Shown here: positions 6,756 through 40,650 of the stretch, piece after piece
How positions within the stretch are numbered: position 1 is the first letter of the stretch
How the letters are laid out: each line of letters starts with the position of its first letter
From: Flavobacteriales bacterium
GTDB taxonomy: Bacteria; Bacteroidota; Bacteroidia; Flavobacteriales_F; PHOS-HE28
Reading direction: 5' to 3'
NCBI GenBank assembly: GCA_019912395.1
Contig: JAIOIH010000068.1
Location: 1 to 48,377, forward strand
DNA: 48,377 nt
The notes under the pieces: model-generated
Database searches by the model: none
The model's input: only the letters and a program-made list of their open reading frames with translations
What the model was told of the DNA's origin: nothing
Position numbers and translations under genes: made by a program

Positions 6756-6762
6756 CTTTAAT

Positions 6763-9786: not shown

Positions 9787-9789
9787 CGG

Positions 9790-11304: not shown

Positions 11305-11307
11305 TGT

Positions 11308-11382
11308 TCAAACTAACAGTCGCCCCATCGCGTGCAGCAGGTGCAGCAGGCTCGGATCGAAGTGAAGATTGACCGTGCTCAT
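11308..11382 (-). CDS. 24-residue ORF resembling the start of a type III res gene
   Basis: The ATG overlaps the AlbA_2 stop (ATGA) and the TGA lies 3 bp before the Pif1 ATG, so it is fully coupled in the operon. Its N-terminus, MSTVNLHFDPSLLHLLHAMG, resembles the typical Res opening 'L.FDP.L..Q..A....LL' and, loosely, that of Res1 (FKFDASQPHQLRAI). I read it as a leftover res 5' end, left when the Pif1-Res1 segment was joined in. It could also be a small translated peptide in its own right. Confidence 0.4.
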   Translation of the reverse strand: MSTVNLHFDPSLLHLLHAMGRLLV

Positions 11383-15499: not shown

Positions 15500-15515
15500 C
15501 CCTTCATCTCCACCC

Positions 15516-24632: not shown

Positions 24633-25556
24633 CTACAAGTTCGACGGCTCGCTCTCGTATCGATCCAGGAATTCCTTGAACGTCTTTGCGTATTCAACGA
24701 ACTTCAGGTCATGTTCCAAGGCCCATGCTCTTGCCTCTGTTACATCGGGACTTACCCAGCACAACTCACCTTTGAAGTTGGCTATCGGATCCCAGATGTG
24801 CGTGTCATGTGTGACGAGCCGTGTTCCAATGACGAACAGCTTTTCGGAGTTGTTCAGGGTTGTTGCCCAGAATTCCTGCATCTGCGTGAGTAAGGTGGGA
24901 CAATCGCGCACCGGCTTGTCCTTATGATACATGGCCATTAATGGCACTAGCGTTTGCCGATCATGCAAGAAGTGATGCGCATCGGCAACGGATAAGCTCC
25001 TTACCCGAGTCCCGCCTACCCCACCGACTATTACTCCGGGCTCTGATGAAGGCGGCACGACGAGGGTTATGTTCGTAATAGTAGCTTCTCCAAGATCGGG
25101 AACAATATTGCAGGACCCATGAAGCTTGAATACAGGCAGCGTGCCCCGCTCCTTCGGTTCCGGGGGATGTTGGTAGCGCAGACCTAGCATTTCAATGCTA
25201 TGCTCTATAAGCAAGTCATAGTTGAGCGTTGCGATGTTAACAGCTACCGGCTTCCTCAGCATTATGCGAAGGAATTGAACGTAGTAATTCGAACGGCGTG
25301 GCTTGAACTGGAGGAAGTACTTCGCCATATCCTGAAGAAAGGATTGAACCAATATGCCCTGCTTCTGACACAGTGCATCCATTCCCGTTTCAAAATCCTG
25401 CTCAAACAGAGTTTGAATTTCAGGTTGAATATGGTCCTTACATCGGAGTACTTCCCTCAGCTCCGCGAAGAGGGCATTTCCAAGTGGAGGCGACTTGGGG
25501 GCACACCCTCCGCTAAAGGCACTGGCCCCTGCTCCGAAAAGGAAATGATGCTTCAT
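24633..25556 (-). CDS. SIR2-like NAD-binding/NADase defence protein
   Basis: A 307-residue SIR2-type Rossmann protein: FLFGAGASAFSGG (5-17), IATLNYDLL (108-116), FKLHGSCN (143-150), then VIGTRLVTHDTHIWDPI in the C-terminal strand. Defence SIR2 proteins deplete NAD+ on infection and stop growth. There is no extra sensor domain, so activation probably comes from a partner. The ATG lies one base after the Res2 stop, the tightest link in the operon, which suggests that SIR2 acts as back-up when restriction fails or is blocked. Position matches the Mrr-unknown pair in operon 1. Confidence 0.85.
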   Translation of the reverse strand: MKHHFLFGAGASAFSGGCAPKSPPLGNALFAELREVLRCKDHIQPEIQTLFEQDFETGMDALCQKQGILVQSFLQDMAKYFLQFKPRRSNYYVQFLRIMLRKPVAVNIATLNYDLLIEHSIEMLGLRYQHPPEPKERGTLPVFKLHGSCNIVPDLGEATITNITLVVPPSSEPGVIVGGVGGTRVRSLSVADAHHFLHDRQTLVPLMAMYHKDKPVRDCPTLLTQMQEFWATTLNNSEKLFVIGTRLVTHDTHIWDPIANFKGELCWVSPDVTEARAWALEHDLKFVEYAKTFKEFLDRYESEPSNL

Positions 25557-25557
25557 C

Positions 25558-28500
25558 CTACGAAAAGCTCTTGCCCTCCTTCAAGCCGTATTCCTCCACC
25601 CCCGCCATTTCGCTCACCTCGATCAGTTCCGTGCCGATGGCCTTGAAGTGTTGCTTTCCGCAATCGATCTTCCCTCTCTCCTTAGGGCGCATATCGAACA
25701 GCCCCGTGCCACCCTTAGTCTCCACCACGAAGAAGAGCTTCTCTTCGTTGTTGTTCTTCCAGAGCACCGCCCAATCCGGATTGTAGGTGCCGAGGGGTGT
25801 GTCGATCTTGAACCAGTTCGGAAGCTTGGTGTACACCGAGATGTTGGCACTCTTCTCGAACTCCAGCGCTAACCGGGACTCAACAGCGGAATCATAGATG
25901 ACGTGCTCCAGTGGTGACTTCTTGCTCTCTTGCAGGTTGCTCTTCAGGTAGCCGAAGAGCTCTTCGTTCTTGAAGAGTTCCTGGCTGTAGTATTCCGCGT
26001 CGCCGATCTTCTTGTACTGGATGCCATCCACGATGTGCAAGCGCATCTGCTCGTTGATGATGTCGATGCAGCCCTCTATGAACTTCTGTGGATTGACCCT
26101 GAAGTAACCCAGCTTGTTCGTGCCGGTGAGGATCTTCACGATGGACCTTCGGGTGAGTTGGGTCTCGTTCTGGATGTAGGTCACGATGTCCGGCAGCGCT
26201 TCCACTTCTTCATCCAACGCGGCTACGTATGTGCCCTGCTCTTCGGCCACCAAGCCGCCGATGGTCATGCCGATGTCCACCTTGGTGTAGATCAACTTAC
26301 CGCGGCTGACGCGCAGGCGGTCATCCAGTGCACGGGTACACTCCTTCACGAGTTTATCCGAGTCGAAGGCTACGCTGAAGGTGGTCTTGTACTTCACGCG
26401 CTCCCACAACTCGCGGAACTCCGGGCTTGCCAATACCTGCTTGTTCAGCTGCACGCGCTTCCTATCGCCTTGGTCCTTGATCTCCAGCTTGCCCGCAGCA
26501 TCCTTCAGCTTGGAAAGCAATTGGTGGTACACGTGCAGGTCTTCGGTGAATTCCTCGGGCAAACTCAGTTGGTCCTCTTTCAGATCCGTGCGCAGAAGGT
26601 CTTGCACCTTTCCTTGTGCATTGATGTAGCCCTTCTGGATGAGGTAGCCGAACAAGGCTTCGGAGCGTGCTTGGCCCAAGTAGTTGATGTCGTCGCCATC
26701 GATGGCAAGGACCACATTGTTGAAGCTGTGCGACTCCAAGCGACCGAAGACGATACCCGTTTCCTTCTCGATCTCCTTTTGCAGGTTCTTCACGAAGTCC
26801 ACGTAGCTCTCAGTGGCCATCACCGTGAGGATGTTGGTCTCTTGTCCATGGACGCGATCCCCGTGCTGGTCCACGCACAAGCGCAAGCCACGACCGATTT
26901 CCTGCCTGCGTCCCACATCGGAATTGCCCGCATCCTTCAGCGTGCATATCTGGAACACGTTCGGGTTGTCCCAGCCTTCGCGCAAGGCGCTGTGCGAAAA
27001 AATGAAGCGCAGCTTGCTGTCGAAGCTCAGCAGCTTCTCCTTGTCGCGCATGATCAGGCTGTAGGTGTCCTCATCCACTGCCGTGGAACCGCTGGTGTCC
27101 CTGTAAGCCTCGAACTTGTCTTTCTTGTTGCTTGCCTTGCTCACCTTGTCGATGGAGAAGTAGCCATCGTGTACTTCGTGCGCCGCGACATCGGCATCCT
27201 TGATCTCGCCGAAGAGGCTCACGTATTTCGGTAAGCGCATAAAACGCTTGTACTCCCTCTCGAAGATGTCGGCATAAGGCCCGTTTGCCTTGTTGCCCTC
27301 TTCGTCGTACTGCCGGTAGTTGGCCACCTTGTCGATGAAGAACAGGCTGAGGACCTTGATGCCTTGCGGGTTGTAAACCAGTTCCTTGTCCAAATGCTCT
27401 TCGATGGTCTTGCGGATCAGCGCAGTGCGCACTTGGCTATCGTCCACATCGCCGATGGCCGCGCCCAACTTGATCACTTCATCCCGACCGGTGAAGCTGA
27501 TGTACTCTTCGCCGGGTACCGCATGGATATCCTCGATGATGAAGCCCTTGTATTCATGCCGATCGGTGCGCTCTTCCAAGTCACCGTTGATGCCCTTGCT
27601 CACGGTGATCTTCTTGCGCTTCACTTCGCCGTTCTCGAAGACGGCCAGTTCCAGCTGCGCGGTGGGCATACCCTGCCTCAGGTTCACCTTGAGCAACTTG
27701 ATGTAGGCCTGGTTGTTCACGCCTTGCGCAGTGACCGAGCCCACCTCGATCTGCTTCACCAGCTTCTGCTCGTAGGCATCCACGGCGTTCAGCTTGTACA
27801 TCAGGTTCACGATCTCCTTGTGTGTGGCCGAATAGCGGATCACGGCCATGGGGTTCAGGCCCTTCACGGCTTTCTTGGCAAGTTCCGTGTTCATGGCCCG
27901 CTGGGGTTCGTCCACGAAGACGATCGGCGAGGTGTTGGCGATCAGGTCCAAGGGCTTGTAGCCCAAGCTGTCGTTGTAGCGGTGGATGATGTTGGCCTTC
28001 TTCTTTTCATCCAAGGGGTTCTCAAAGCTCTTGCGGAAGGCATCGATGTTGATCACCATGATCTCCAAGCCCGCGTTGGTGGCGAAATTGCTGACGTCCG
28101 ACAAGTTGGAACTGTCGTACACGAAGTAGTGGTAGTTGATGTTGTCGTACAGTTCCTTGAAGTGCGACTCCGTGATCTGCAAGGATTTGTACACGCCTTC
28201 CTTGATGGGAATGGACGGCACTACGATGATGTGCTTGCTGAAGCCGTAGCGCGTGTACAGTTCCATGATGGTGCGCAGGTAGACGTAGGTCTTGCCCGTG
28301 CCGGTCTCCATCTCCACCGTAAAGTCCAGCGCCTTACGGTCCACCTCATTGCTGGCCGACGGCTTCAGCCCATTGGCCAATTGAATGTGCTGCACGCTCT
28401 CCAACAACTTGCGTTCACCAAGCAGCAGGCGGTTGCCATAACCCGTTTCGGTGAATTCCATGGCGCGTGACTTCGCCAGGAACTCCGGTGAGTACACCGT

Positions 28501-28599
28501 GAAGTTGCTCTCGCACTTCTCCTGCCCTTGGAAGATGTCCACAATGCTGCGGATGGCCGCGGCCTGGTGCGGAAGGGCGCTTTCGAATTGGATCTTCAT
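25558..28599 (-). CDS. Type III restriction endonuclease subunit Res (system 2)
   Basis: A 1013-residue Res: METGTGKT (97-104), VFVDEPQ (227-233, DEPQ in Walker B), RYSATH (255-260), SALREGWDNPNVFQICTL (537-554), QEIGRGLRL (566-574), and a C-terminal nuclease with NPDWAVL (PD 941-942) and VVETKG (E960/K962). It is homologous to Res1 over its length but clearly diverged. Its first 15 codons have a diverged duplicate at 30588-30632, on the far side of the AlbA_2 gene. It is separated from AlbA_2 by 249 bp, the largest gap inside operon 2, and may have its own promoter there. It works with Mod2. Confidence 0.92.
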   Translation of the reverse strand: MKIQFESALPHQAAAIRSIVDIFQGQEKCESNFTVYSPEFLAKSRAMEFTETGYGNRLLLGERKLLESVQHIQLANGLKPSASNEVDRKALDFTVEMETGTGKTYVYLRTIMELYTRYGFSKHIIVVPSIPIKEGVYKSLQITESHFKELYDNINYHYFVYDSSNLSDVSNFATNAGLEIMVINIDAFRKSFENPLDEKKKANIIHRYNDSLGYKPLDLIANTSPIVFVDEPQRAMNTELAKKAVKGLNPMAVIRYSATHKEIVNLMYKLNAVDAYEQKLVKQIEVGSVTAQGVNNQAYIKLLKVNLRQGMPTAQLELAVFENGEVKRKKITVSKGINGDLEERTDRHEYKGFIIEDIHAVPGEEYISFTGRDEVIKLGAAIGDVDDSQVRTALIRKTIEEHLDKELVYNPQGIKVLSLFFIDKVANYRQYDEEGNKANGPYADIFEREYKRFMRLPKYVSLFGEIKDADVAAHEVHDGYFSIDKVSKASNKKDKFEAYRDTSGSTAVDEDTYSLIMRDKEKLLSFDSKLRFIFSHSALREGWDNPNVFQICTLKDAGNSDVGRRQEIGRGLRLCVDQHGDRVHGQETNILTVMATESYVDFVKNLQKEIEKETGIVFGRLESHSFNNVVLAIDGDDINYLGQARSEALFGYLIQKGYINAQGKVQDLLRTDLKEDQLSLPEEFTEDLHVYHQLLSKLKDAAGKLEIKDQGDRKRVQLNKQVLASPEFRELWERVKYKTTFSVAFDSDKLVKECTRALDDRLRVSRGKLIYTKVDIGMTIGGLVAEEQGTYVAALDEEVEALPDIVTYIQNETQLTRRSIVKILTGTNKLGYFRVNPQKFIEGCIDIINEQMRLHIVDGIQYKKIGDAEYYSQELFKNEELFGYLKSNLQESKKSPLEHVIYDSAVESRLALEFEKSANISVYTKLPNWFKIDTPLGTYNPDWAVLWKNNNEEKLFFVVETKGGTGLFDMRPKERGKIDCGKQHFKAIGTELIEVSEMAGVEEYGLKEGKSFS

Positions 28600-28848
28600 G
28601 GCTCAACTACGGGTCTGGTTGCGAACGGTTCACCGAGACCGCCCCGAGCGGTTGTTCGAGGTAACCGCAAGGAAGGCAAGCGGTGAACGATCGTGGCATT
28701 ATCCTCTATTCCGGTTGTCATTATCGGCAGGTGTCCGGCCCTACGGACAGAGGTCGCAATGCCTTGATGATCAAGTGATCGAGCCTTTCTTATACGATCT
28801 CGGTTTATGACCTTCTGAGTTATGACCATGTCATTATTCCGTTCATAA
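28600..28848 (-). promoter_or_regulatory. Intercistronic region before res2, possible internal promoter
   Basis: This is the only gap over 200 bp inside operon 2. It is more AT-rich than its surroundings and holds the near-perfect palindrome CTTGATGATCAAG (28763-28775), followed by GTGATCGAGCC. No exact TAnnTTTG box was found. ORFs across it are arginine-rich and unconvincing. A repressor site or internal promoter for res2-SIR2 is possible. Confidence 0.3.
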
Positions 28849-30552
28849 CTATGACTTAACCGACTGACTGCCAGGCAAATGATAATACCGCCCCCGTTTT
28901 TCGCCTTTGGGAACAAGTTTGCCCTTGGAAACCAAGGACCTAAGTAATGCAGTGGCATTTCTGGCGGCAAGGCCAGTAAGCTCCATGGCCTTTTCGCGCC
29001 GAACACGGCCATGCTTGGCCACATGGTCCATAACGGCCTTTTCCTGCGCCTTTGTGTCCAAGCCCTTCAGGCGGGCATGGGCCAGGGGCTTGCCCAGTTG
29101 GCGGTAAACCGCGGCCGTGAATTGGAACACCCGGCCTTGTTTATCTTCTCGCGGCTCTACAAGCCCTTCTTCCACCAGGCGTTCCAAAATGGCACTTGCT
29201 TCCGGGGTTCCTGCGTGCATGTCCTCCGCCAAGCTCGCCGCCGAAAGTTGCCGTTGATGAAAGAGCCGGTTCAGCCCGATCATTTCACCGATCGTGAGCG
29301 GCTTCCCTGTGCTCCGCTCGCGCTGAAAGATGAAGGATGCGAATTCTTGACTTTCACTGCCACCTTGGATGATCAGCCGGACCGCCGTGTCATCGCTGCG
29401 TGAATAGTCCGGAACGGGGCGGCCATAGCGCACTTGTCCGTCATAGACCTTGTCCACTCCACGGCCGGTCTGTTCCACAAGGCCAAGCCGTTTACCGGCT
29501 TCGTACAGTCGCCGGTTGCGGGGCTTGGGCTCATGGGTGAGCAGGTTGCGCACATTCACACCTTCGGGGAAACCGCCCGGGCTGGTGATGAACAAATGAT
29601 CAGGATGCCATTGTACATAAACGCATTCATTCCGGCGGTAATCGCGGTGAAAGAGCGCATTCAATAGCGCCTCGCGGAAGGCGGGGAACGAATAGTCCGG
29701 TATCGGCATCCGCACCATGCCCACCTGTACTTCCTTCTCTTGGCTCCGAGCTTTGAAGCGTTGCTCGAAAAGGTCCGCAAGCTCCACCAAGGGCTTACGG
29801 AAGAAGTCGTTCATGCGGACCTCTCCTCCCGGGTCCAACACTTGGAAGGCCGCTTCGTGCGTTGGGATGTGTTTCCGCAGGGCTTCTTCGCGCCCCAACA
29901 ACAATAGCCCGGTAAGCGTGGGCACCAGTTGGTCGTCCACGGTTTCCAGTGCACCTATGGCCTTGGCCAATTCCTCGTCGCCGAGGGAAAGCAGCGTCTT
30001 GTCGCCGGTGCGTGCCGAAATGGTATTGCGTGCACGTTCGAATTGCAGGGGATCCAAGTCAATGAACTTGGCTTGCGTACATGGCATTGCACTCATGTCC
30101 TCCGCGCCCAAGCGCAAGCCGCTGCCACCATGTTCATGAGGGTAAAAGGGGACGCATGCCGGGCCGTGGTTCTCCATGACGCGCCGTTGGCAAGTGCCAT
30201 CCGTGTGGCTCGTGGTGCTCTGCCCTTTAGGGACACGCACCTCCAACACCGCCCCGTTCGCCGTGGAATGCTCCAACACCACTACATCCAAGGGTGGCAC
30301 GGTGCTGTTGCGCACCAAGGCGCTCAGCTTAGCCGGGTCCGTAATGGTTCCATGCCGTGGCTTCGCACCGGTGATCGTGCCATCATCCTCCACACCGATC
30401 AACAGGCTGCCCGCTGTGGTATTCGCCATGCACATACATGCCAAAGCCAGTTCGCGGTCGCTCAGCGGCTTCTTGGACTCTCCCTTGAATTCCAAGGTCA
30501 AGGTCTCGCCACCGGCGATCAAGGCCATTAGTTCCAGTTCGTTCATTCCCAT
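28849..30552 (-). CDS. AlbA_2 (Schlafen-type) protein with RecG-like C-terminal region (operon 2)
   Basis: A 567-residue protein. AlbA_2 domain: LTLEFKGES (18-26) and ACMCMANTTAGSLLIGVEDDG (38-58). ATP-binding module: FREALLNALFHRDY (292-305) and VEQTGRGVDKVY (359-370). The C-terminal 150 residues carry two winged-helix-like segments (LERLVEEGLVEPREDKQGR and LLRSLVSKGKLVPKGEKRG). It is longer than, and only distantly similar to, the operon 1 AlbA_2 protein, yet has the same slot between Mod and Res. Its start ATG overlaps the end of a res 5' fragment, a sign that it was spliced in at the res start. Confidence 0.85.
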   Translation of the reverse strand: MGMNELELMALIAGGETLTLEFKGESKKPLSDRELALACMCMANTTAGSLLIGVEDDGTITGAKPRHGTITDPAKLSALVRNSTVPPLDVVVLEHSTANGAVLEVRVPKGQSTTSHTDGTCQRRVMENHGPACVPFYPHEHGGSGLRLGAEDMSAMPCTQAKFIDLDPLQFERARNTISARTGDKTLLSLGDEELAKAIGALETVDDQLVPTLTGLLLLGREEALRKHIPTHEAAFQVLDPGGEVRMNDFFRKPLVELADLFEQRFKARSQEKEVQVGMVRMPIPDYSFPAFREALLNALFHRDYRRNECVYVQWHPDHLFITSPGGFPEGVNVRNLLTHEPKPRNRRLYEAGKRLGLVEQTGRGVDKVYDGQVRYGRPVPDYSRSDDTAVRLIIQGGSESQEFASFIFQRERSTGKPLTIGEMIGLNRLFHQRQLSAASLAEDMHAGTPEASAILERLVEEGLVEPREDKQGRVFQFTAAVYRQLGKPLAHARLKGLDTKAQEKAVMDHVAKHGRVRREKAMELTGLAARNATALLRSLVSKGKLVPKGEKRGRYYHLPGSQSVKS

Positions 30553-30632
30553 GCCAAAGTATAGCTGTCTTGCAATTTCCAGCTGTTGGCCGCAGCTTGG
30601 TGGGGTAGAGAGCTTTCAAATTGGATCTTCAT
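30543..30632 (-). pseudogene. 5' scar of a res gene upstream of the AlbA_2 gene
   Basis: The minus-strand ORF begins MKIQFESSLPHQAAA (30588-30632), matching the Res2 start MKIQFESALPHQAAA at 28599 with one residue change and several silent changes, then diverges and stops at 30543 inside the AlbA_2 start. The PLD gene ends 21 bp upstream. Originally a res gene must have followed PLD directly here. Confidence 0.8.
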
Positions 30633-30653
30633 TATTTATTGCTTCTCGATGTT

Positions 30654-31928
30654 CTACTTCGGCAGCCTATGTAGCATCATGTCATAGATCGGATACACCC
30701 CCTCGAACTCGTTCATTACGGTGTTCACGATGCTGGAATCTGAAAGCCGAGGGTCACCCGGTTGCATCTCCATGCCTATAATGAAGTAGTACTTGTTGTC
30801 CGCTGTCAACAGATGGTCCCGTAGTGCAGTCTCAGTGTTGAATTCCCGGATATCCTTGTACGTGTTGTTAAGGCCGATGAAATAGTGCTCTGGCAACGCT
30901 TGGACCAATGTGAACAAGCGACTCACGTATTGCGGGTCATTCGTGAGCTTGTCTTTGATGTGCTGCCGGTCGTAGGGACTTCCATTGTCCTTACTGACGC
31001 GCAGCCAGATGCCTACGTTCGTTCCATGCACGATCACTTGCAGCCTCATGAAGTCCAATGGTGTGGAGTCCGCACCATACCTCTTCAAGACTGCCTTACC
31101 ACGCCCGTAGTGCAGCCAGATCCCATCGAGTCGGTTGGATGTGTACTGCCCATGGACTGCGGATGACACGATATCATCTGGGACATAATGGTCATGGAGG
31201 TCCCAGCCTTTTCGCTTGATCTGCGGTAACAGCAGGTCGTTCAGTCGGTACAACTGGTTCCGAACAGCAACACGTTCGGCATTGACTGCCGGTGTTTCCA
31301 TCCATGGTTTGCGACCCGTAAAGGCCTCAAAATGTTCCCGCTTGAAGTACTGCCCAGTGAAGTCGATCCTATTGAGGTCAATTCCACCCGCTCCCTCTTC
31401 AACTAGTAGGCTCTCAGTCTCCTCGCGCTCTTCCTGCCGCCGTTTATTGCGAGCGCGAACCAATTGTTCGTACGCCTCTAGAAACTCTTCATCCACAGCC
31501 TTGCCGTGCTTGTGCCATGTTTCAATTGTTGCCACCAACTTATTGCACAACTCCAGTTCTTCGGTGCGCAAAGCGATCTCTACGTTATTCTCAAACCCGC
31601 CATTCGTGCAATTGCCGGAGCCTACATAACCCACGTACTTCTCGCCTGTGCGGATCACATACACTTTGGGATGGAAAGTCCTGCCTTGCTTGTAGTTGTA
31701 CCTGCCCGCTATCCGGTTTCCATCCTCTTCCATGAATGTCCGCAATACATTCGGTGAAGTGGCGAGATCCACGCCAACAACCCAATGCTGCTTTGCACTT
31801 GGGTCGATGTGCCTCTGCACCAACTGAAAGCCCGCATCCGAGGCCAATGCCACAGCGACCCACAGTTCATCGCAACCGCGCAGATCGTTCGGCAGGCTAT
31901 TCGCCAATTTGAGTTGGTGACGTTCCAT
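30654..31928 (-). CDS. Phospholipase-D-like (HKD) nuclease
   Basis: A 424-residue protein with one HKD-type half: TFHPKVYVI (84-92) and VGSGNCTNGGFENNVEIAL (102-120), giving H86, K88 and the downstream N/E set. Single-HKD proteins such as Nuc or BfiI dimerise to form one active site, so nuclease activity on DNA is plausible. The C-terminal 280 residues are unassigned. The ATG at 31928 is preferred to an upstream TTG at 31934; the Mod2 stop overlaps within three bases. A PLD nuclease between Mod and Res is unusual for type III systems. Confidence 0.8.
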   Translation of the reverse strand: MERHQLKLANSLPNDLRGCDELWVAVALASDAGFQLVQRHIDPSAKQHWVVGVDLATSPNVLRTFMEEDGNRIAGRYNYKQGRTFHPKVYVIRTGEKYVGYVGSGNCTNGGFENNVEIALRTEELELCNKLVATIETWHKHGKAVDEEFLEAYEQLVRARNKRRQEEREETESLLVEEGAGGIDLNRIDFTGQYFKREHFEAFTGRKPWMETPAVNAERVAVRNQLYRLNDLLLPQIKRKGWDLHDHYVPDDIVSSAVHGQYTSNRLDGIWLHYGRGKAVLKRYGADSTPLDFMRLQVIVHGTNVGIWLRVSKDNGSPYDRQHIKDKLTNDPQYVSRLFTLVQALPEHYFIGLNNTYKDIREFNTETALRDHLLTADNKYYFIIGMEMQPGDPRLSDSSIVNTVMNEFEGVYPIYDMMLHRLPK

Positions 31929-31930
31929 CC

Positions 31931-33880
31931 TCAAACACTCCTAACCTCCTCCACCCCGAACCGCTTCAACGTCTGCGCGGCATTGGTCTTTTCCACATCG
32001 GTAAAGCCGTTGTCGCGGAAGATCACGCGGCAGGTCTCGGGGTTCAGTTCCTGTTTCCAGGCGCCGATGCCTTCGGCCACTTGGTTGGTGATGCCCTCGG
32101 CCAAGCAGAGGAACAAGGCACCCATGCCCACGTTGTAAACCTTCTTGCCTGCTATGCTGCGCTCCTCGATGGGCAGCGTAAGGTCCAAGCCGTATTTGAG
32201 CAGCACCTCGTAGAGCACATCGGCCTCCGTGCGGTCGGGCTTGATGTTCTCGGCGGCGCTCAGTAGGTTCTCTTGCATGCGCTCGGGGTCGCCATCCCAG
32301 GCGTTGATGTTGCTGCTATCCAGCTTGAAGGCCTTGAAGCCGGTATCCAACTTGGCCAAGCGCGCTTGCTTGTCTTGGAGTTCCTGCTCTTCCTCTTCGC
32401 TGCGCACCAACTTGGCCTGCAAGCTTTTGATCTCCGCCTCCAACTCGCCCACGATCTTTTTGCCTGCACGGCGTATGCGCTCCTTGCCGATCTCCGCTAT
32501 GGTCTTGTACCCTGCTTTGTAGGCTTCGCTCTTCTCATTCGTAGGCTCGGGCAATTGCACCTGTATGTGCCGCCGCTGCCCGCCATCCTCGGCGTTCAGC
32601 TGCATCACGGCGTGGGCGGTGGTGGCTGAGCCGGAGAAGAAGTCGAGGATGATTGTATTGTCTTCTATAAGACCCGCAATGCGAGTCATCTTTTCAATAA
32701 GCCGAACCGGCTTGGGTCCGTCGAAGAAACCATTGCCATCAAACAGTGCCTTGAACTCTTGTTTGCCTTCTTGGTTGTGGCCGACATCCTTGTACTTCCA
32801 TATTGTAGTGGGCACTACGCCACCTTCCATTTCTGCAAGAAAGCTCTTGTACCGCGGGACCGATTCGCCATTTTGACCAAACCAAATCCTATTATCCTTT
32901 CGAAGTTCTTCCAGCTTTTCCATTGAGACTGACCAACACCGACCACCAGTTGGTTCGATAATACTTCCCGAGGGAGTTGTAACAGGGTAATCGTAGGTTG
33001 CATTATAGGACTTCACTGTAAGATCGGATGAAGCCCATACACCCCGCGGGTCATTGTCCGGGTTCCCAAACCGCGCATTGTGTTGATCAGTTCTAGGCAA
33101 CTTCGTTGGACGCCATACATCCTTCTTCAATGCAACGCAAAGTAGGAAATCGTGTGTATCGGACAGCCATTTCGCATCGTTCTGCGGCGAGAACTTCTTT
33201 TCCCAAATGATAGTGCTGACATAATTGGCTCCGCCGAAAATGTTGTTCAGTAACTGAATGCAATTGTATGCTTCACTATCGTCCAAGCTGATGAACATCA
33301 CCCCATCCTCCCGCAACAAATTCCTTGCAAGCCGCAGTCGCGGGTACATCATGTTCAGCCAATTGCTGTGGTAGCGGCCATCGGTATCGCTGTTGGTGCT
33401 TAGGGTGTTGCCCTCGCTGTCCACCTGGCCGGTCTGCTCCTTGTAGTTGCGCAGGTTGTCGCGGTAGTTGTCCTTGTATACAAAGTCCTTCCCGGTGTTG
33501 TAGGGCGGGTCTATGTAGATCATCTTCACCTTGCCGGTGTAGCTCTTTTGCAGCAGCTTCAGCACCTCCAGGTTGTCGCCTTCTATGTAGAGATTCTTGG
33601 TGCTGTCCCAGTCCACGCTTTCTTCCGGGCAGGGGCGCAAGGTGCCGGTGCTGGGCTTGTGCGCTTCGCGGCGGGCCTGTGCCTTACCCGCCCACGTAAA
33701 GCGGTAGAACTCCTCGCCGCTCTCTACTTCCTCACCCAGTATTTCCTGCAAGGCGTTAAAATCCACCTTGCCTTCGGTAACCACTTCGGGGAAGAGTTCC
33801 TTGAGCCGGGCAATGTTCTCGGCCAGCAGGTCCTTGCTTTGGCTTTCGGGGTCGGTTGGGGTGATCTTGGAGATGGACAT
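31931..33880 (-). CDS. Type III site-specific DNA methyltransferase Mod (system 2)
   Basis: A 649-residue beta-class N6-adenine methyltransferase: IYIDPPYNTGKDF (121-133) precedes ILDFFSGSATTAHAV (410-424). The motif I loop reads SGSATT instead of AGSGTT in Mod1. The recognition region (about 225-395) is unrelated in detail to that of Mod1, so the two systems should see different sites. The helical segment 455-520 (EIKSLQAKLVRSEEEEQELQ) may be a dimerisation coiled coil. It follows the Dam-type gene by 38 bp. Confidence 0.92.
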   Translation of the reverse strand: MSISKITPTDPESQSKDLLAENIARLKELFPEVVTEGKVDFNALQEILGEEVESGEEFYRFTWAGKAQARREAHKPSTGTLRPCPEESVDWDSTKNLYIEGDNLEVLKLLQKSYTGKVKMIYIDPPYNTGKDFVYKDNYRDNLRNYKEQTGQVDSEGNTLSTNSDTDGRYHSNWLNMMYPRLRLARNLLREDGVMFISLDDSEAYNCIQLLNNIFGGANYVSTIIWEKKFSPQNDAKWLSDTHDFLLCVALKKDVWRPTKLPRTDQHNARFGNPDNDPRGVWASSDLTVKSYNATYDYPVTTPSGSIIEPTGGRCWSVSMEKLEELRKDNRIWFGQNGESVPRYKSFLAEMEGGVVPTTIWKYKDVGHNQEGKQEFKALFDGNGFFDGPKPVRLIEKMTRIAGLIEDNTIILDFFSGSATTAHAVMQLNAEDGGQRRHIQVQLPEPTNEKSEAYKAGYKTIAEIGKERIRRAGKKIVGELEAEIKSLQAKLVRSEEEEQELQDKQARLAKLDTGFKAFKLDSSNINAWDGDPERMQENLLSAAENIKPDRTEADVLYEVLLKYGLDLTLPIEERSIAGKKVYNVGMGALFLCLAEGITNQVAEGIGAWKQELNPETCRVIFRDNGFTDVEKTNAAQTLKRFGVEEVRSV

Positions 33881-33918
33881 ACTGCACTCTCTATTTGAAC
33901 GATTGTTTTCTATTCGCT

Positions 33919-34794
33919 TTAGCCTACCGCCTTCGTCTGTGGGATGGCCTCGTTGGGTACAACAAGATTCTGGCTGAAGAACATCACCTCGCTCCCTACG
34001 TACCGCCGTTGGGCCGTGTAATTCAGGCCATAGCTAAGCGCTTGGCTCATCTGGTACATTTCGCAGATCTCCTCCGCGTTGTCATAGGACACAACCCATG
34101 GCCACGTGAACGTTTCCTGCTGGAGCACCCTCGCGATCCGAACATGATCGTCGTGCTTGTAGTAGTTGCGGTAGAGCCCCTTCCCCTTCACATAGTAAGG
34201 TGGGTCGAGGTAGATCAACGAGCGCTCCGGCAAGAACTCCGCACAGCGGTTCAATAGTTGCTCCGAATCCACGCAGTACACGGATATGTCGTTCGCTCTA
34301 TTCGCGATCGCCTCGATGCGTGCAGCGATCATGTCCTTCCTGAAGCGGGCATCCAGCTTGTATTCCCCGCTCTGCTCCTTTCCGCCGATCACCCCGGCCT
34401 TCAGAATGCCGGAGCGGTTCGTTCTATTCATGAACAGGGTAGCAAAGCCTTTCTCCACCAAGGTCGCTTCAGTCTCCCCGCGCAGCACCGACCTCCATTG
34501 GAACCACTGATCCATGGTAATGGGGGTTGAGTCAAGCAGATCCAACAGTGCACCGGAATGCTCTGTTATGGACAGCCAAAAGGCGTGTACTGCCGGATCC
34601 AAATCGTTGATGTGGATGTGGCTGGCATGGTCGTGGAACAGCAGCTCCAAGGCCACCCCTGCGCCACCGGCATAAGGCTCCAGATAGTGGCCACCTTCCA
34701 CGCCGTTCACCTCCATCACCTTCGCGATGAAAGGAGCGAAGGGGGCCTTGCCACCGGGGTAGCGTAAGGGGCTATAGAGTCGGTTGGAGTACAT
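33919..34794 (-). CDS. Dam-family (D12 class) N6-adenine methyltransferase
   Basis: A 291-residue alpha-class MTase: SPLRYPGGKAPF (8-19), YLEPYAGGAGVALEL (37-51, motif I), FMNRTNRSGI (121-130) and LIYLDPPYYVKGKGLY (193-208, motif IV). It methylates adenine in a short sequence. It starts 2 bp after the OLD-like ATPase gene, so the two may form a unit of their own in which methylation marks self DNA and the ATPase-nuclease attacks unmarked DNA. It is one of two methyltransferases in operon 2; operon 1 has only one. Confidence 0.9.
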   Translation of the reverse strand: MYSNRLYSPLRYPGGKAPFAPFIAKVMEVNGVEGGHYLEPYAGGAGVALELLFHDHASHIHINDLDPAVHAFWLSITEHSGALLDLLDSTPITMDQWFQWRSVLRGETEATLVEKGFATLFMNRTNRSGILKAGVIGGKEQSGEYKLDARFRKDMIAARIEAIANRANDISVYCVDSEQLLNRCAEFLPERSLIYLDPPYYVKGKGLYRNYYKHDDHVRIARVLQQETFTWPWVVSYDNAEEICEMYQMSQALSYGLNYTAQRRYVGSEVMFFSQNLVVPNEAIPQTKAVG

Positions 34795-34796
34795 GG

Positions 34797-36503
34797 CTAG
34801 GCCTTCTTGAGCTTCACTTGGATCGCGGAAAGCTTCTCTGCGGGCACATTAAAACCCTTTTTCATTACGCCACGGAGCGCGGCCTCGAATTGGGACAGGA
34901 ATTGGTTGGTCGCCTCTGGATTGTTATCGACCCAGTGCTTCCAAGGATTGTATGGCTTGGTGGCGTGGCCTACGAGCTTTTGAAACTCTGGATCTTTATA
35001 GAACCGCTTGAAGATCTCACGCAATTTTTCGGCGCGTACCTTCTTGCTTTCATTCGGTTCTGATGTATACGCCAATTCGCGCTCTGTAATGTCCACTGTA
35101 TTCCCAGTGATGCGCAACTTGCTGATCACCTCAGCTGCGGACTGCTTGAAGTTCTCCCTTGAATACTGCAACTCGTTCCTCCAAAACTCGTGTCCTGCAG
35201 GCAGGTTGTACAAGTACTGGAATATCAGTCGATCAGGTGCGAGCCCGCCTGGTAGAAGGACCACTGTTTTGGGATGCTTCTTAGTGAGCAAGTGGGCCGT
35301 ATCGCCATCCAGGCAAACCACACCTCTTTCTGAAAAATCACGCACACCCGCGTTGATCAAGTTTAGATAGTTGGAGCATCCAAGGCTCACATCCCGCAGC
35401 GGAGCAATAAACTTCTTGAGCGGCTGCCGGACCATCAGGGCTGCAAAAAGATCCGCCGCTTCCTTGTCCTCAAAGTAGACGTTCACCTTGGGGAGCAACG
35501 TGTTGGTTGCAGTTGCAATGGTTTTAATGCTGATGTCCGCACTGATCTGCGCCCAGGACCAATCCTGCATTACCTGTACATCGCCGTAAGTGTTGCACAG
35601 GTAAATCGTCTTGTAGTTCTTTCTATAGACCTGACTTTGCTCGAAGGCGTATTCGATCAACGTTGGCGAATGCGAGGTCATGATAACTTGCAGGTTCATG
35701 CTCCGGCACTCGCGATCAAGGATCTTGAGGAGGTTGATCTGTGCCGCCGGGAACAGCCCGGCATCCGCCTCGTCGATCAGCAATAAGCCGCCTTTGTAGT
35801 CCGGGTATTCCTTCCTCAACTTCCTGAAGGACATCAAAGCCAGTATGATCTGCCCTGCATTGTCCTCTCCTGCGGAGACAGACTCATGATCATAGTTAGC
35901 ACCATGTGCGACAGCGGAGTTGATGGTGCCTCCCGTTCCCGTGGCAAGTGATGAACTCCGGCTCAGCAATTCATTGTTGAGCGCAATAAATTCCTCCTTG
36001 TCGTCCATGCGGTCAAGCTCAATGACCTTGTAGGTTCTATCGGCGATTGGATAAAGGCGCTTCAGGCTAAGGAAGATTACCGGATGGGTGAAGTTCCGGC
36101 TCGATTGTTCAGGGGCTGTGCTGTTGTTCCTGACCACCGGCCTTGAGTGGTTGGCCCTCTTCATCAGCTCAAGTTTTGCTGTGGCCGCCTGCCCGGAATA
36201 ACCATCGAGCAATTCAATGTTGACCTTCATGGAACCGGGCACGTCAAACTTCTTGGAGATCCGGAAGTGCTCACTGTATTGCGACTTGAAGGAGCCGCCG
36301 GCAATTTGCACAAAGGACAGTTCCTTGTCCCTTGCATAGTCCTTTTCAAAACTGAATATCTGTGCGGCGATGCCTAGTATTGAGGACTTGGAAGTGCCAT
36401 TCTTACCACACACCACCGTGATGTGGTTACCGAACTCGATATCCACATTCTCCAAGGCACGAAAATGCTCAATATGGAGCTTGTTAAGCTGGGTCTTTCC
36501 CAT
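34797..36503 (-). CDS. OLD-like AAA ATPase with TOPRIM-type C-terminus
   Basis: About 568 residues (motif numbers from the TTG two codons upstream): Walker A VVCGKNGTSKSS (32-43), signature-like SAGEDNAGQ (212-220), Walker B LLLIDEADAGLFP (242-254), switch MTSHSP (277-282). The C-terminal part has YFEDKEAADLF (345-355) and GVVCLDGDTAH (396-406), fitting the E and DxD of a TOPRIM nuclease, as in overcoming-lysogenization-defect proteins. It would couple ATP-dependent sensing of DNA to nicking. The ATG at 36503 is favoured over the TTG at 36509. A 127-bp gap without a gene separates it from DUF4391. Confidence 0.83.
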   Translation of the reverse strand: MGKTQLNKLHIEHFRALENVDIEFGNHITVVCGKNGTSKSSILGIAAQIFSFEKDYARDKELSFVQIAGGSFKSQYSEHFRISKKFDVPGSMKVNIELLDGYSGQAATAKLELMKRANHSRPVVRNNSTAPEQSSRNFTHPVIFLSLKRLYPIADRTYKVIELDRMDDKEEFIALNNELLSRSSSLATGTGGTINSAVAHGANYDHESVSAGEDNAGQIILALMSFRKLRKEYPDYKGGLLLIDEADAGLFPAAQINLLKILDRECRSMNLQVIMTSHSPTLIEYAFEQSQVYRKNYKTIYLCNTYGDVQVMQDWSWAQISADISIKTIATATNTLLPKVNVYFEDKEAADLFAALMVRQPLKKFIAPLRDVSLGCSNYLNLINAGVRDFSERGVVCLDGDTAHLLTKKHPKTVVLLPGGLAPDRLIFQYLYNLPAGHEFWRNELQYSRENFKQSAAEVISKLRITGNTVDITERELAYTSEPNESKKVRAEKLREIFKRFYKDPEFQKLVGHATKPYNPWKHWVDNNPEATNQFLSQFEAALRGVMKKGFNVPAEKLSAIQVKLKKA

Positions 36504-36630
36504 GGCCAAGGGCGTGATGTTACTACAGGTGCTGTAAAACCTTGGGCAAGGTAGCTTTCCGGAACGAACGCAGAAATAATTCGGATGGATCTGGATGCCA
36601 CTTAATGATGCAACTGGTCCGGCCGTCGTT

Positions 36631-37404
36631 TTATCCAGCTAACTTCTGCTTCAAATTCTCAACAACAGCACGCTTTTCCTGTATGGCCATATTCAGGTCC
36701 ACTTGTTCGCGCAGCGCTTGGCCCTTTTTCACTTTGGCCTTCAGCGCATGTATCTCGGCCTCCAAGGCATCGATGCGTTGTAACGCTTCGAGGTCGCTTG
36801 TACTGCGCGCACGGGTGCGCTTGCCGAAGGTGCCAGTAAGTGCGGCAGCGCGGCACTGCACAATGGCCTGCATGTAGCTGCCGTATAGCGTCCGCAGATC
36901 GGTCTTGTCCAGTTGTGCGAAGGCTAGCGCATTGAAGAAGCCTTTGGCATTGGCATCGGCATAGAGTAATGACAGTACGGGCGTTCTGAGGCTCGCCTCG
37001 ATGGTCCGCTTGCTGGCATCGTTCAGGTTGATCCGTTTAATGCTGGCGTTCACCAAGTAGTTCTCGCTATCCTGTACGAAAAGTAGCAAGGGGTACGGCA
37101 CATACTTCTGCACCATGGCCACTACCTTTTCCCCAACTTGATCCAAGCGCTCTGAGGTGCTCGTAGTGCGCAGTTCCACCGCGAACACCTGCACCTCCTC
37201 ATAGCTGTGCGTATCCGTTACATAGGCCGGAATGCTGGCCGCCTTGATGCTGGCAAGCCATTCCATGTGTTCGATGCCCTCGTTCAGCAGTTTCTTTTCG
37301 GCGACACTCAAGGTGAAGTGCTTCAGGAAGAATGCCTTGGTGAGCCGCTTCTGAAGGATGCAGTGCTCCGGCAACTGCAGTATGTCCAAGAAGTGCGGAC
37401 TCAC
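36631..37404 (-). CDS. DUF4391-family protein
   Basis: A 257-residue protein matching in style the DUF4391 family, which from general knowledge tends to lie beside helicase and methyltransferase genes of restriction-like loci; its biochemistry is unknown. The body (LPEHCILQKRLTKAFF, VQVFAVELRTTSTSERLDQV, NLNDASKRTIEASL) is alpha/beta; the last 50 residues (DALEAEIHALKAKVKKGQAL) form a coiled coil, suitable for holding a complex together. The GTG start overlaps the SNF2 helicase stop (GTGA), so the two are made together and probably interact. Confidence 0.75.
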   Translation of the reverse strand: MSPHFLDILQLPEHCILQKRLTKAFFLKHFTLSVAEKKLLNEGIEHMEWLASIKAASIPAYVTDTHSYEEVQVFAVELRTTSTSERLDQVGEKVVAMVQKYVPYPLLLFVQDSENYLVNASIKRINLNDASKRTIEASLRTPVLSLLYADANAKGFFNALAFAQLDKTDLRTLYGSYMQAIVQCRAAALTGTFGKRTRARSTSDLEALQRIDALEAEIHALKAKVKKGQALREQVDLNMAIQEKRAVVENLKQKLAG

Positions 37405-40400
37405 TTGACCATCAGATATGCGACCAGTTCCAACGAACCCTCCTCGGCCAAGCTCTTGCTGAACAGAGTGGTACCGCCGGGTGTGGCGAGGCTGTCCAGC
37501 CCTACCTCCTCCTGCACCTCCACTACTTCGGCCATGGCTTGCTTCAGCAGCGCCCGGTACTTCTCCATCTTCTTTCCGGAGCCGGTCTCCTTGTCGAATG
37601 CCGCTACGAGCTTTGGCAGCACCTTGTCATTTCCCATGCACAGCTTTCGGAAATAATCCAGCGCTGTACGGGTCTGCCGCGCGGTGAGCATTTCACTGCC
37701 GTCGGCACTCAGGTACACAAGAAAATAAGGATAGAGGATGTTGTTCCGCAGCCGCTCGGTAAAGGCGTTGCTCACATCTTTCAAGCAGAAGATCACGCCC
37801 GGCTTGATGGAGGCCAAGTTGCTCGGCACCACGGCGAAGGATGCCGGCGGCACGTTGTTCAGCGCCTCCAGTTCGGCATCGGTGCTTTTCTCCAGATCGA
37901 TCTTGAAATCGTTGAAGGTGAGGTCGGTGATGGAGATGTTCCCATGCACATCCTCCATGTCCATCACTTGGTCTTGTAGTTGCTTCAGCTGGCGCTTGCG
38001 GTACTCCAGGTCCTGCATTTCGCGGCTGTTCTGGCTGATGATGTTGTCCTCGCCGGTAGCGGATACATCCAGCATCACCATGCGGCCTTGCACGCGGGCC
38101 ACCAGATCGATGAAGCTGTCCAGCTCCATGCTGGGAAAAAAGTTCACCAATTGGATCTTCTCGTTCACCGAGCCGATGCGGTCGATGCGCCCGAAGCGCT
38201 GGATGATGCGCACCGGGTTCCAGTGGATGTCGTAGTTCACCAAGTAGTCGCAGTCCTGCAGGTTCTGCCCTTCGCTGATGCAATCGGTGCAGATGAGCAC
38301 GTCGATGGCATTGGTCTCGTCCGGGAATATCTCATTGCGCTTTTTGCTGAGCGGACTGAAGTGCGTGAGGATGCTATTGAGGTCTGCACGGCAGCCGGGC
38401 ATGTTGGTCTTGTTCACCCCCCCTCCGGTGACCAATGCGCTATAAAGACCGAACTCTTCGGTGAGCCATTGCTCCAGTTCGCGGTGCAGATAGGTGGCCG
38501 TGTCCGCGAAAGCGGTGAACACGATCACCTTCTTGTTGCCTGCGTTGATGGGGTCAGCGATCTTCTCCGTGATCAGCTCCTTCAGCTTGCGCAGTTTCGC
38601 ATCTCGCGATACGTCGATCAGCTTGATGCTACTCATCAGCTTGGTGAGCTTGTCGCGGTCCAGCTTCAGGTCCTGCTTCCAGCGGATCAGGTCCAAGTCC
38701 GGGATCAGCACCTTGGTCTTGCCGCCCACCAGCAGATCGCTCAGCTCGGTATCGTCCGGATCGATGTCGGCAATGTCGAGGTCCTGTTCCACCTCGCCGG
38801 TCTGGTGCGCCTCTAATTGTATCAGGTTCCTGTCGATCAGGTCCAACAGGTTCTGGATGGTGAGCTTGAAGGCGTGGATGGAACTCTCCAAGCGCTTCAA
38901 CAAGTTCACGCGCATCAGGTAGATCAGGCTTTCCTCCCGGTCGGCCTGCTTGAACACGGTGCCGCGTTCGGTCTCGATCGCATACTTGGCCTCGTATGCA
39001 TCCTTACGATCGGCCCGCACATATTCCAGCGGCGTATAGTAGGCTAGGGTCAACGTGCTGATCTCATCGTAGATCTCGCCGATATCCTTGAACTTCATCT
39101 GCGTGTCGATCTCCGGTTTCACGGTGATCGGCAGTAGCCGTTCCGGGAACTTCCCGATGTCGGCCATGTCGTAATACTTCTCGATATGCTTGCGGGAACG
39201 CGCGATGGTGAGCATGTCGAGGATCCGGAAGTAGGCCCCGTCCAAATTGTCCAGCAGTTCCTGCACCTGCAGCTTGTCCGGATCGGTATCGCGATACCAC
39301 TTGGTGAACTTGCGCTGGGCCTCGCGCATGATCTGGGTCACACTGTCCAAGCCGTGTACATTGAACGCGCGATCATCCCCCTCGGTGATGAAGGCGACCT
39401 GGTTCTTCAGGTCGTTCATCTTGTTGTTCACCGGGGTGGCTGAAAGCATAAGCACCTTCGTGCGCACGTTGGAGCGGATGACGTCGTTCATGAGGCGCTT
39501 ATACCGCGTCATGACATCGCGTTTCTGCGGGTTGTTCCGGAAATTGTGGCTCTCATCGATCACCACCAGATCGTAGTTGCCCCAGTTGATCATCTCCAGA
39601 TCGATGTCACCGCTCTTTCCCTTTTCACGGCTCAGGTCGGTGTGGTTCAGCACATCGTAGTTGAAGCGATCCTGCGCCAGAATGTTGCGCTTGTCATTGA
39701 GCTGGTAGATGGTCCAGTTCTCCCGCAGCTTCTTCGGCGCCAGCACGAGGATGCGGTCGTTGCGAAGCTGGTAATACTTCATGATGGCCAGCGCCTCGAA
39801 GGTCTTCCCAAGACCCACGCTGTCCGCAATGATGCAGCCGTTGTAGGTCTCTATCTTTTGGATGGCGCCGATCACGGCGTCCTTCTGGAAGTTGTAGAGC
39901 ATGTTCCAGATCTTCGAGTCCTTCAAGCCAACGCGCATCAGCTTCTCGTCGGCACGCTCGCTTACGGTGGAGTACTGGAAGATCTCGCGGACGCAGTACT
40001 TGTAGATCGATTCGCCGGTGTTGGGCCGGACCCCTTTCTGGAGTTCTTCGATGATCTGATCGTTCAGCACCTCCCTGCTGTTCTCCCACGCATTATTGAA
40101 AAGCGCCAAATACTGTTCGCTGCCGGAAGTGAAGGCATTGATCAAGATCGGTTGCGTGGATGGCAATTCCCCCAGTGTCACGCTGTTCAGTTCAAGCGGC
40201 GTCAATGAAAAGGACTCCAGTTTGCCGCCAGTTTCAAGAATGAGCACATGCTGATTGGCCACCGCACCCCTGCGGATGTCGAACTTGTCCTCGAGTAGAC
40301 CGATGACCTGTCGAATGCGGTAGGGCCTATCGAGTTCCAAGTTCAAAGACGCTTCGGCATCGCTCTGGATAAATTGGAACGGCTGCTCATCCGCCTTTCG

Positions 40401-40565
40401 GTTTAGCAACACCTTCACGCGCTTCGCCTTCTTCAGCACATCCAGCAGACCATACAGTGCAAATGCCGTGAAGTAGGAACAGCTAAGGTGTACCACCGTG
40501 TTCTCCGTGACCGCTGCGCGGATCTCTTCAATAAGCCGGGTGGTCTGGTTGTCAACTATGCGCAT
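37401..40565 (-). CDS. SNF2/SF2 helicase with degenerate N-terminal PLD domain, first gene of operon 2
   Basis: A 1054-residue protein. N-terminal 170 residues resemble a PLD half (VVHLSCSYFTAFALYGLLD, KVLLNR, then HVLILETGG where HxK has become HVL), so it is probably a catalytically dead PLD used for binding. SNF2 motor: CIIADSVGLGKTFEA (244-258), LVVIDESHNFRNN (333-345), LMLSATPVNNK, then VIVFTAFADT, LICTDCISEGQNL and IIQRFGRIDRIGS in the second RecA domain. It should translocate on duplex DNA. The start at 40565 (MRIVDNQTTRLIEE) overlaps the leader ORF. Operon 1 has a UvrD helicase in the same lead position. Confidence 0.9.
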   Translation of the reverse strand: MRIVDNQTTRLIEEIRAAVTENTVVHLSCSYFTAFALYGLLDVLKKAKRVKVLLNRKADEQPFQFIQSDAEASLNLELDRPYRIRQVIGLLEDKFDIRRGAVANQHVLILETGGKLESFSLTPLELNSVTLGELPSTQPILINAFTSGSEQYLALFNNAWENSREVLNDQIIEELQKGVRPNTGESIYKYCVREIFQYSTVSERADEKLMRVGLKDSKIWNMLYNFQKDAVIGAIQKIETYNGCIIADSVGLGKTFEALAIMKYYQLRNDRILVLAPKKLRENWTIYQLNDKRNILAQDRFNYDVLNHTDLSREKGKSGDIDLEMINWGNYDLVVIDESHNFRNNPQKRDVMTRYKRLMNDVIRSNVRTKVLMLSATPVNNKMNDLKNQVAFITEGDDRAFNVHGLDSVTQIMREAQRKFTKWYRDTDPDKLQVQELLDNLDGAYFRILDMLTIARSRKHIEKYYDMADIGKFPERLLPITVKPEIDTQMKFKDIGEIYDEISTLTLAYYTPLEYVRADRKDAYEAKYAIETERGTVFKQADREESLIYLMRVNLLKRLESSIHAFKLTIQNLLDLIDRNLIQLEAHQTGEVEQDLDIADIDPDDTELSDLLVGGKTKVLIPDLDLIRWKQDLKLDRDKLTKLMSSIKLIDVSRDAKLRKLKELITEKIADPINAGNKKVIVFTAFADTATYLHRELEQWLTEEFGLYSALVTGGGVNKTNMPGCRADLNSILTHFSPLSKKRNEIFPDETNAIDVLICTDCISEGQNLQDCDYLVNYDIHWNPVRIIQRFGRIDRIGSVNEKIQLVNFFPSMELDSFIDLVARVQGRMVMLDVSATGEDNIISQNSREMQDLEYRKRQLKQLQDQVMDMEDVHGNISITDLTFNDFKIDLEKSTDAELEALNNVPPASFAVVPSNLASIKPGVIFCLKDVSNAFTERLRNNILYPYFLVYLSADGSEMLTARQTRTALDYFRKLCMGNDKVLPKLVAAFDKETGSGKKMEKYRALLKQAMAEVVEVQEEVGLDSLATPGGTTLFSKSLAEEGSLELVAYLMVK

Positions 40566-40588
40566 GGGAGGATGTTGCTGGTGGGCAT
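40556..40588 (-). promoter_or_regulatory. Upstream ORF 'MPTS...' in the operon 2 leader
   Basis: A 10-codon ORF, MPTSNILPCA, whose stop lies just inside the SNF2 helicase gene, so the helicase ATG (40563-40565) falls within it. The first four codons equal those of the upstream ORF before UvrD. Termination-reinitiation coupling is plausible. Confidence 0.35.
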
Positions 40589-40650
40589 TGCGGTGACAAA
40601 GTACCAAATGCCTGAATGCGCCTGGATGCCAACACCACCAAATGGCCTAA
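40570..40650 (-). promoter_or_regulatory. Shared operon leader, copy 2, with candidate promoter
   Basis: Matches 20889-20980. The minus strand reads GCGCATTCAGGCA, TTTGGTACTTTGT, then CAATGCCCACCAGC. The TACTTTG box (40597-40603) is 32 nt before the SNF2 helicase ATG. Confidence 0.45.

Follow-up and report, generated by a model that had tools for sequence, protein, structure and literature searches.

Stubs of res and mod genes between mod and res of SNF2-DUF4391-Mod-Res operons, read as footprints of recombination that stacks cargo genes

Why does the start of a restriction gene occur twice in one operon, on both sides of an unrelated gene? The question is raised by a 48,377-nucleotide stretch of Flavobacteriales DNA (GenBank assembly GCA_019912395.1, contig JAIOIH010000068.1, positions 1 to 48,377; below, the window), whose minus strand carries an operon with the order SNF2, DUF4391, AAA_15, D12, Mod2, PLD, scar, AlbA_2 and Res2. 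Mod2 and Res2 are the methyltransferase and the restriction subunit of a type III system, encoded by mod and res, the genes between them are termed cargo, and the scar is a stub of a res 5' end. An earlier interpretation (the sequence-only reading) had proposed that a res gene once followed PLD directly and that AlbA_2 plus the present res were joined at its start. Here, we analyzed the repeat itself, the relatives of the operon within the genus, and the mod-res intervals of a wider set of loci, among which three (L091, L048 and L170) carry similar stubs. We read such stubs as footprints of homology-facilitated illegitimate recombination, by which cargo would be stacked between mod and res of SNF2-DUF4391-Mod-Res operons.

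In a repeat search of positions 25000-34000, the largest direct repeat consisted of 28549-28599 and 30582-30632, which are 51 nucleotides (nt) long and 82% identical. The first copy is the 5' end of Res2 (25558..28599, minus strand), the second is the scar (minus strand), and the AlbA_2 gene with its SLFN_AlbA_2 and HATPase_c_4 domains (28849..30546, minus strand) lies between them, as had been noticed from the letters alone. On the minus strand, the 45-nt core of the scar (30632-30588) encodes MKIQFESSLPHQAAA, and Res2 starts at 28599 with MKIQFESALPHQAAA. The repeat ends 46-51 nt into res, and the DNA beyond is unrelated to res. The repeat search of 25000-34000 also yielded 48 inverted pairs, of which the 25 longest were listed. 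In the genome to which the window belongs (4.13 Mb, 87 contigs), a 300-nt query spanning the Res2 start matched only itself and the scar copy (E 1.7e-7), a third copy being absent. As a control within the mod-res interval, 30 other windows taken from this res all stayed below the score of its start (57). In a second control, the Mod2-to-Res2 region was aligned to the rest of the window in 185 consecutive 45-nt pieces. Four pieces exceeded the score of the res start (55) and a fifth had the same score; each of the five corresponds to a homologous place in Mod1 or Res1, which belong to the other type III-like system of the window. A chance repeat was ruled out by the repeat search, the own-genome search, and the control windows at the DNA and protein levels. 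Also, an origin from Res1 was ruled out: Res1 starts with MSKPIRFKFDASQPHQ, and the mod1-res1 interval contains no stub of note (scores of 31 for the res1 5' end, 28 for the mod1 3' end, and 21 for the Res2 5' end). An assembly artefact is unlikely because a collapsed or doubled read cannot yield an 82% copy. The duplicated res start flanking AlbA_2 is confirmed as real.

How the second copy arose can be judged in part from its differences. The 45-nt core and Res2 differ at 7 nt in 6 codons, of which 5 are changed silently and one shows a replacement (Ala8 to Ser), so that the silent differences claimed before stand with this single exception. If the 7 changes had fallen at random, as in a decaying copy, no more than one replacement codon would result with a probability of 0.0004-0.0015. 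Random decay thus fits poorly, and the scar would have acquired most of its differences as coding DNA, be it within another res gene or as a leader under selection. This argues against a local duplication, in which replication slippage or the target duplication of an inserting element would have produced a second res start at the locus, with AlbA_2 inserted between the copies. Furthermore, the stubs differ among loci in their start points and in their end points (28, 46-51 and 55-57 nt), unlike a fixed target duplication. A transposon-type event is also not matched by 82% rather than full identity, by lengths of 28 to 57 nt, or by an insert that consists of AlbA_2 and a spacer; among the 28 window proteins scanned, no match to transposase or integrase Pfam families was obtained (E 0.001). 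What a local copy would explain well is that, among 135 res starts, that of Res2 comes closest to the scar, and that the stubs of L091 (28/28 nt) and L048 (three changes) hardly differ from the res of their own locus. On balance we regard a local duplication as very improbable, and the earlier statement that the scar is not the product of a fresh duplication is borne out by its silent-biased divergence.

We consider it likely that the scar is what remains of a res gene that was displaced, and that SNF2-DUF4391-mod-PLD-res was joined with AlbA_2-res DNA of a similar operon. An ancestral operon with PLD as cargo would have met DNA of an operon of the same kind with AlbA_2 ahead of res. On one side, the incoming cargo and res would have paired by homology via the res body or its flank, and on the other side an illegitimate joint would have formed about 46-51 nt into the old res, the place at which the repeat ends. 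In the product, PLD would be followed by 15-17 codons from the 5' end of the old res, by AlbA_2, and by a single complete res. In the mirror case, incoming mod and cargo would leave a mod 3' end behind. The stubs are probably short because recombination between the real res and a longer duplicate of it would delete the cargo. One feature of homology-facilitated illegitimate recombination, a stub at the non-homologous joint, is present, and the stub would represent the displaced gene. Res2 is homologous along its length to its relatives in two congeneric genomes, G023 and G032 (94% and 82% protein identity), and the exchange point was not located. The succession proposed by the sequence-only reading, with a res start once behind PLD and AlbA_2 plus a complete res joined to it, gains support from the repeat, from the silent bias, from loci with PLD or AlbA_2 alone, and from relatives with neither of the two.

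Stubs of this kind recur in other loci. The best 80 of more than 586 Res2 relatives from genome_contigs and 60 loci from viral_contigs were collected, and 12 regions of other genomes and 12 plasmid regions, chosen by us among 60 hits listed, were added. Positions for both mod and res were obtained in 127 of 143 loci (the window, two congeners, genome_contigs and viral_contigs); their distance was 0-60 nt in 72, 61-149 nt in 3, at least 150 nt in 51, and wrong (negative) in 1. The 51 long intervals and 10 from later loci were scanned at the DNA and protein levels and 2 more at the DNA level only, giving 63 intervals of at least 150 nt, which include the near-duplicates L063 and L087. Three of these contain a res 5' stub, namely those of the window, of L091 (G023) and of L048, and one, on the viral contig L170, contains a clear mirror-image mod 3' stub. 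L048, from a Candidatus Hydrogenedentota bin, has the order mod, RhuM, res stub (54-57 nt), DUF6088/AbiEi, AbiEii and res; L170 has the order mod, a small open reading frame (ORF), a 54-nt mod 3' stub (83%), AbiV and res. In the protein-level scan of 61 intervals, the res stubs scored 78, 71 and 43 and the mod stub 74, and these four alone exceeded the top control of the whole scan (39), each lying above all of its own 19-20 control windows. The res stubs begin at the start codon in two loci and 2 nt earlier in the third, and all three fall in the 13 intervals of at least 2 kb. To us, this recurrence in unrelated bacteria is a more interesting result than the scar of the window itself.

Weaker signals were not counted. 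Among candidates for mod 3' stubs, L287 (25 nt, DNA score 35) was reached by 4 of 19 controls at the protein level, L025 (protein-level score 33) was reached by 1 of 19, and L155 (also 33) was reached by none of 19 yet stayed under the top control of the scan. The DNA-level res 5' candidates L145 (27) and L022 (22) were not reached by any of 30 controls and lay far under the counted stubs (56-99), and a candidate in L036 scored 30 at the protein level, with 1 of 20 controls reaching it. The viral loci showed no res-side stub, and no convincing stub was found at the DUF4391-mod joint in 32 intervals (best scores 36 for a mod 5' match beginning 33 nt inside mod and 28 for a DUF4391 3' match). 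As a separate observation, a Monoglobus plasmid (L295 5345-9709) carries two tandem methyltransferase genes with a transposase gene between them ahead of res, a pair that may be another recombination product.

The closest relatives were sought in 45 genomes, i.e., that of the window and 44 congeners. Res2 was matched in five of them, at full length besides its own only in G023 and G032, the matches in G002 and G004 being partial with at most 41% identity. Both G023 and G032 have SNF2, DUF4391, Mod and Res in the order of the window, and neither AlbA_2 nor PLD has a match at E 0.001 anywhere in these two genomes. Between mod and res, G023 carries HNH, a gene for 357 amino acids, a Doc toxin gene, the 28-nt res stub, a fragment of the 357-amino-acid gene, TIGR04255, and two genes of unknown type, followed by res, so that the stub is located between cargo genes. 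G032 carries another fragment of the 357-amino-acid gene and a HipB/HipA set. The 357-amino-acid gene has no Pfam or NCBIfam match; its fragments (L091 10851-11002 and L092 9886-10020) are 75% and 86% identical in DNA to the complete gene of L091 and are debris of lost cargo in both relatives. From the differing cargo and the gene fragments, it follows that the genes between mod and res are exchanged within the genus, with remnants staying behind. In G023, the HNH gene of the cargo (L091 12774-14396, minus strand) shows a weak NCBIfam likeness to the HNH part of Cas9 models, far under their cut-offs. Within the genus, the PLD of the window has its nearest relative in G039 (58%), next to an Eco57I-type methylase and a further ResIII gene; PLD therefore travels with other restriction-modification (R-M) systems too.

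Several points weigh against the displacement of an old res by an incoming one. Among the 135 res starts (Res2 included), the scar matched Res2 best (38/45), followed by those of G032 (36) and G023 (35). Scar codons 13-15 agree with Res2 against both relatives and codons 1-12 do not group in this way; over 45 nt only, the agreement hints at gene conversion or at a common ancestor in the recent past. The distances of Mod2 and Res2 from G023 do not clearly differ: identity to G023 amounts to 93.5% (588 nt) in the first part of Mod2, to 89.3% (722 nt) in its last part, and to 89.0% (3961 nt) in Res2 and the gene that follows. Being about equally distant, Mod2 and Res2 give no sign of Res2 as the foreign half. 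The identical stub of L091 and that of L048, whose three changes alter the start codon, cause one replacement and introduce one stop, fit a local copy equally well. A clear stub is present in only 4 of 63 intervals, so that the process is rare or its traces fade. Finally, no donor locus or parental joint was found, and hence the recombination route was not observed; route and donor are what we infer. The ranking of res starts means that the old res was a variant of the same genus-level type, and it looks like one from the same genus. The proposal that the incoming res came from another lineage therefore becomes a tentative one. Of two findings that, in combination, had been named beforehand as speaking against the earlier interpretation, the closeness of the scar to Res2 is formally given, by 2 nt, and a constant presence of AlbA_2 in relatives is not.

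The same product could have been reached from the opposite direction, with mod-AlbA_2-res as the resident operon and PLD plus the first codons of a foreign res entering between mod and AlbA_2. The G+C content at third codon positions (GC3) is 0.50 for the scar (14 codons), 0.64 for PLD, 0.67 for AlbA_2 and 0.82 for Res2. In line with a reversed direction, scar and PLD are less GC-rich than Res2, and the distance from G023 is similar for Res2 and Mod2. However, AlbA_2 has the next-lowest value of the four, 14 codons carry little information, and the product is identical either way. We hold a reversed direction to be possible, with some doubt.

The selected leader mentioned above has to be weighed as well. 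The scar belongs to an ORF of 29 codons (30543..30632, minus strand; MKIQFESSLPHQAAANSWKLQDSYTLAWE, read by eye) whose TGA overlaps the start of AlbA_2 as ATGA. Through the stump, AlbA_2 is preceded by a start codon and a short ORF, so that its translation may involve re-initiation. Selection could have kept the stub as such a translational leader, an explanation that is compatible with displacement. AlbA_2 homologues (75-76%) are present in the congeners G033 and G018, where DNA homology to the window begins exactly at the ATG at 30546. Upstream of this point, both have a truncated DinD-like ORF (91 amino acids, the first quarter of the protein; L134 9549-9824, minus strand, and G018:C262:371-643), the 60 nt compared directly upstream of AlbA_2 being the same in both. 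In G033, the ORF lies between a methyltransferase gene and AlbA_2 and matches NCBIfam PRK11525.1 at profile positions 9-79 of 288 (83 bits, compared with a whole-protein cut-off of 242), and its stop overlaps the AlbA_2 start as ATGA (L134), as does that of the window scar ORF. An 889-amino-acid ORF follows AlbA_2 in both genomes, and in G033 it is a ResIII gene. The habit of AlbA_2 in these genomes is similar to that in the window.

A role as leader would also fit the silent bias, expected for a selected reading frame, and the AGGAGG-type sequence that the mod 3' stub of L170 bears right before the next gene. On the other hand, the frame of the L048 stub stops after 11 codons, about 200 nt ahead of the next annotated ORF, that of the L091 stub falls short of the next intact gene, and the overlap frame is expected by chance in about 1 of 3 cases. 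Because the L048 and L091 stubs stop short in this way, a leader role is not the general reason for the stubs; it is plausible for the window scar, and retention of the stub by selection appears rather unlikely as its explanation. An even bolder idea treats the mod-res joint as a dedicated port for gene capture, with repeated entry at the res start or the mod end by a common mechanism and with the stub as a translation adapter that gives new genes the start signals of the operon; this we regard as improbable.

The cargo of other loci was analyzed as well. The set comprised 48 of 53 ORFs from 32 genome_contigs loci, with Pfam counts from 25 of 45 matched families. Among the matches listed, the 48 proteins include RhuM (6), Macro (4), PLDc_2, Abi_2 and DUF2130 (3 each), SLFN_AlbA_2, DarT, Fic and YhcG (2 each), and AbiEii (1). 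Mod-PLD-res loci without AlbA_2, a search for which had been suggested before, were found: a PLD gene is the sole ORF between mod and res in L043, L067 and L073. AlbA_2 without PLD is present between mod and res in L036, in L288, which belongs to the later loci, and in L014, the last also with a DUF4062 gene. The PLD and AlbA_2 genes of five such loci are only distantly related to those of the window (phmmer E 1e-13 to 2e-5), and the loci represent simple, precursor-like states. The window unites the two kinds of cargo, with the stub in between. DUF4391 was found in 48 and SNF2 in 50 of the 80 loci from genome_contigs, a set in which many loci are truncated. In L025, the cargo consists of an OLD-like ATPase with TOPRIM and a UvrD-type helicase, which we take to be the Gabija layout.

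The remaining genes of the operon complete the picture. The PLD-like gene (30654..31928, minus strand), the first cargo, lies 2 nt past the stop of Mod2, and its PLDc_2 match is slightly under the Pfam cut-off. Mod2 (31931..33880, minus strand) matches Pfam N6_N4_Mtase and PADLOC MTase_III (E 4e-223). Res2 has an ATPase (ResIII) and an endonuclease (RE_endonuc) domain and matches PADLOC REase_III (E 4e-302). In these two subunits the operon resembles type III R-M systems, the type example of which is EcoP15I, with ATP-dependent cleavage at head-to-head sites. Unlike a plain type III system, it adds SNF2, DUF4391 and the cargo between mod and res. Upstream, the SNF2-DUF4391-Mod-Res operon consists of DUF4391 and the SNF2-type helicase (36631..40607, minus strand; PADLOC 'HKD+Snf2'). 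A second insert (33919..36509, minus strand), located between DUF4391 and Mod2, contains a D12 methylase (PADLOC PD-Lambda-5_B) and an AAA_15 ATPase with 83% and 68% identity to a pair in G033. That pair is located upstream of the AlbA_2 locus of G033, and both inserts of the window therefore have relatives in one G033 locus. The 249-nt spacer between AlbA_2 and Res2 (28600..28848, minus strand) can still be aligned with G033 for some 20 nt beyond the AlbA_2 stop. The entire spacer occurs only once in its own genome and matches nothing in the 43 congeners searched. A structured or repeated spacer was ruled out, as the fold is no better than that of shuffled sequences (z -1.13) and the spacer is single-copy; an inverted repeat, GTTCACCG...CGGTGAAC, was seen in it by eye.

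Further observations concern the rest of the window. The second type III-like system (5760-17396, minus strand) consists of Mod1, an SMC-like ATPase, AlbA_2/HATPase_c_4, a PIF1-like helicase, Res1 and an Mrr nuclease. Its AlbA_2/HATPase_c_4 protein is encoded at 11379-12710, so AlbA_2 lies between mod and res in both systems of the window; the two AlbA_2 proteins are alike only in short stretches. At 21567-23093 (minus strand), a DUF559/MTES_1575 nuclease-type domain, a PKD-like domain and a Por secretion sorting tail are combined in one protein, an odd union of a DNA-nuclease fold with secretion signals.

Homology-facilitated illegitimate recombination is known experimentally (PMC3240628). 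For type VI clusters of Vibrio cholerae, it was proposed to account for arrays of immunity genes, beside which orphan Rhs tips are mentioned in the accessible text (PMC5361080). According to the same text, the arrays resemble the proposed history of the window in that a module enters at a conserved anchor, the old gene is displaced, a remnant is possible, and cargo comes to stand in tandem. There, the anchor is the region upstream of the effector module and old immunity genes are retained (PMC5361080), whereas in the window the anchors would be mod and res, both cargo genes are retained, and only a res or mod stub of 28-57 nt is left. Toxin and abortive-infection genes within R-M operons, such as PrrC/RloC, RhuM, Fic/Doc and Abi2, have been described, and the cargo reported here includes the same kinds (RhuM, Fic/Doc, Abi_2). 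The idea put forward for them is functional coupling rather than entry of cargo, and the part of that article available describes no stubs of host R-M genes (PMC3710099). In titles and abstract openings, with subscription papers mostly outside this scope, we found no description of res or mod stubs or of cargo stacking between mod and res; DUF4391 is named in one paper of the literature searched.

Defence genes in restriction operons are known, and their entry and piling-up are rarely visible. The mod and res stubs would provide a countable footprint of these events, since they mark joints, hint at the order of arrival, and allow a test of growth by one-sided recombination. They may also offer a cheap way of finding layered defence cargo in genomes.

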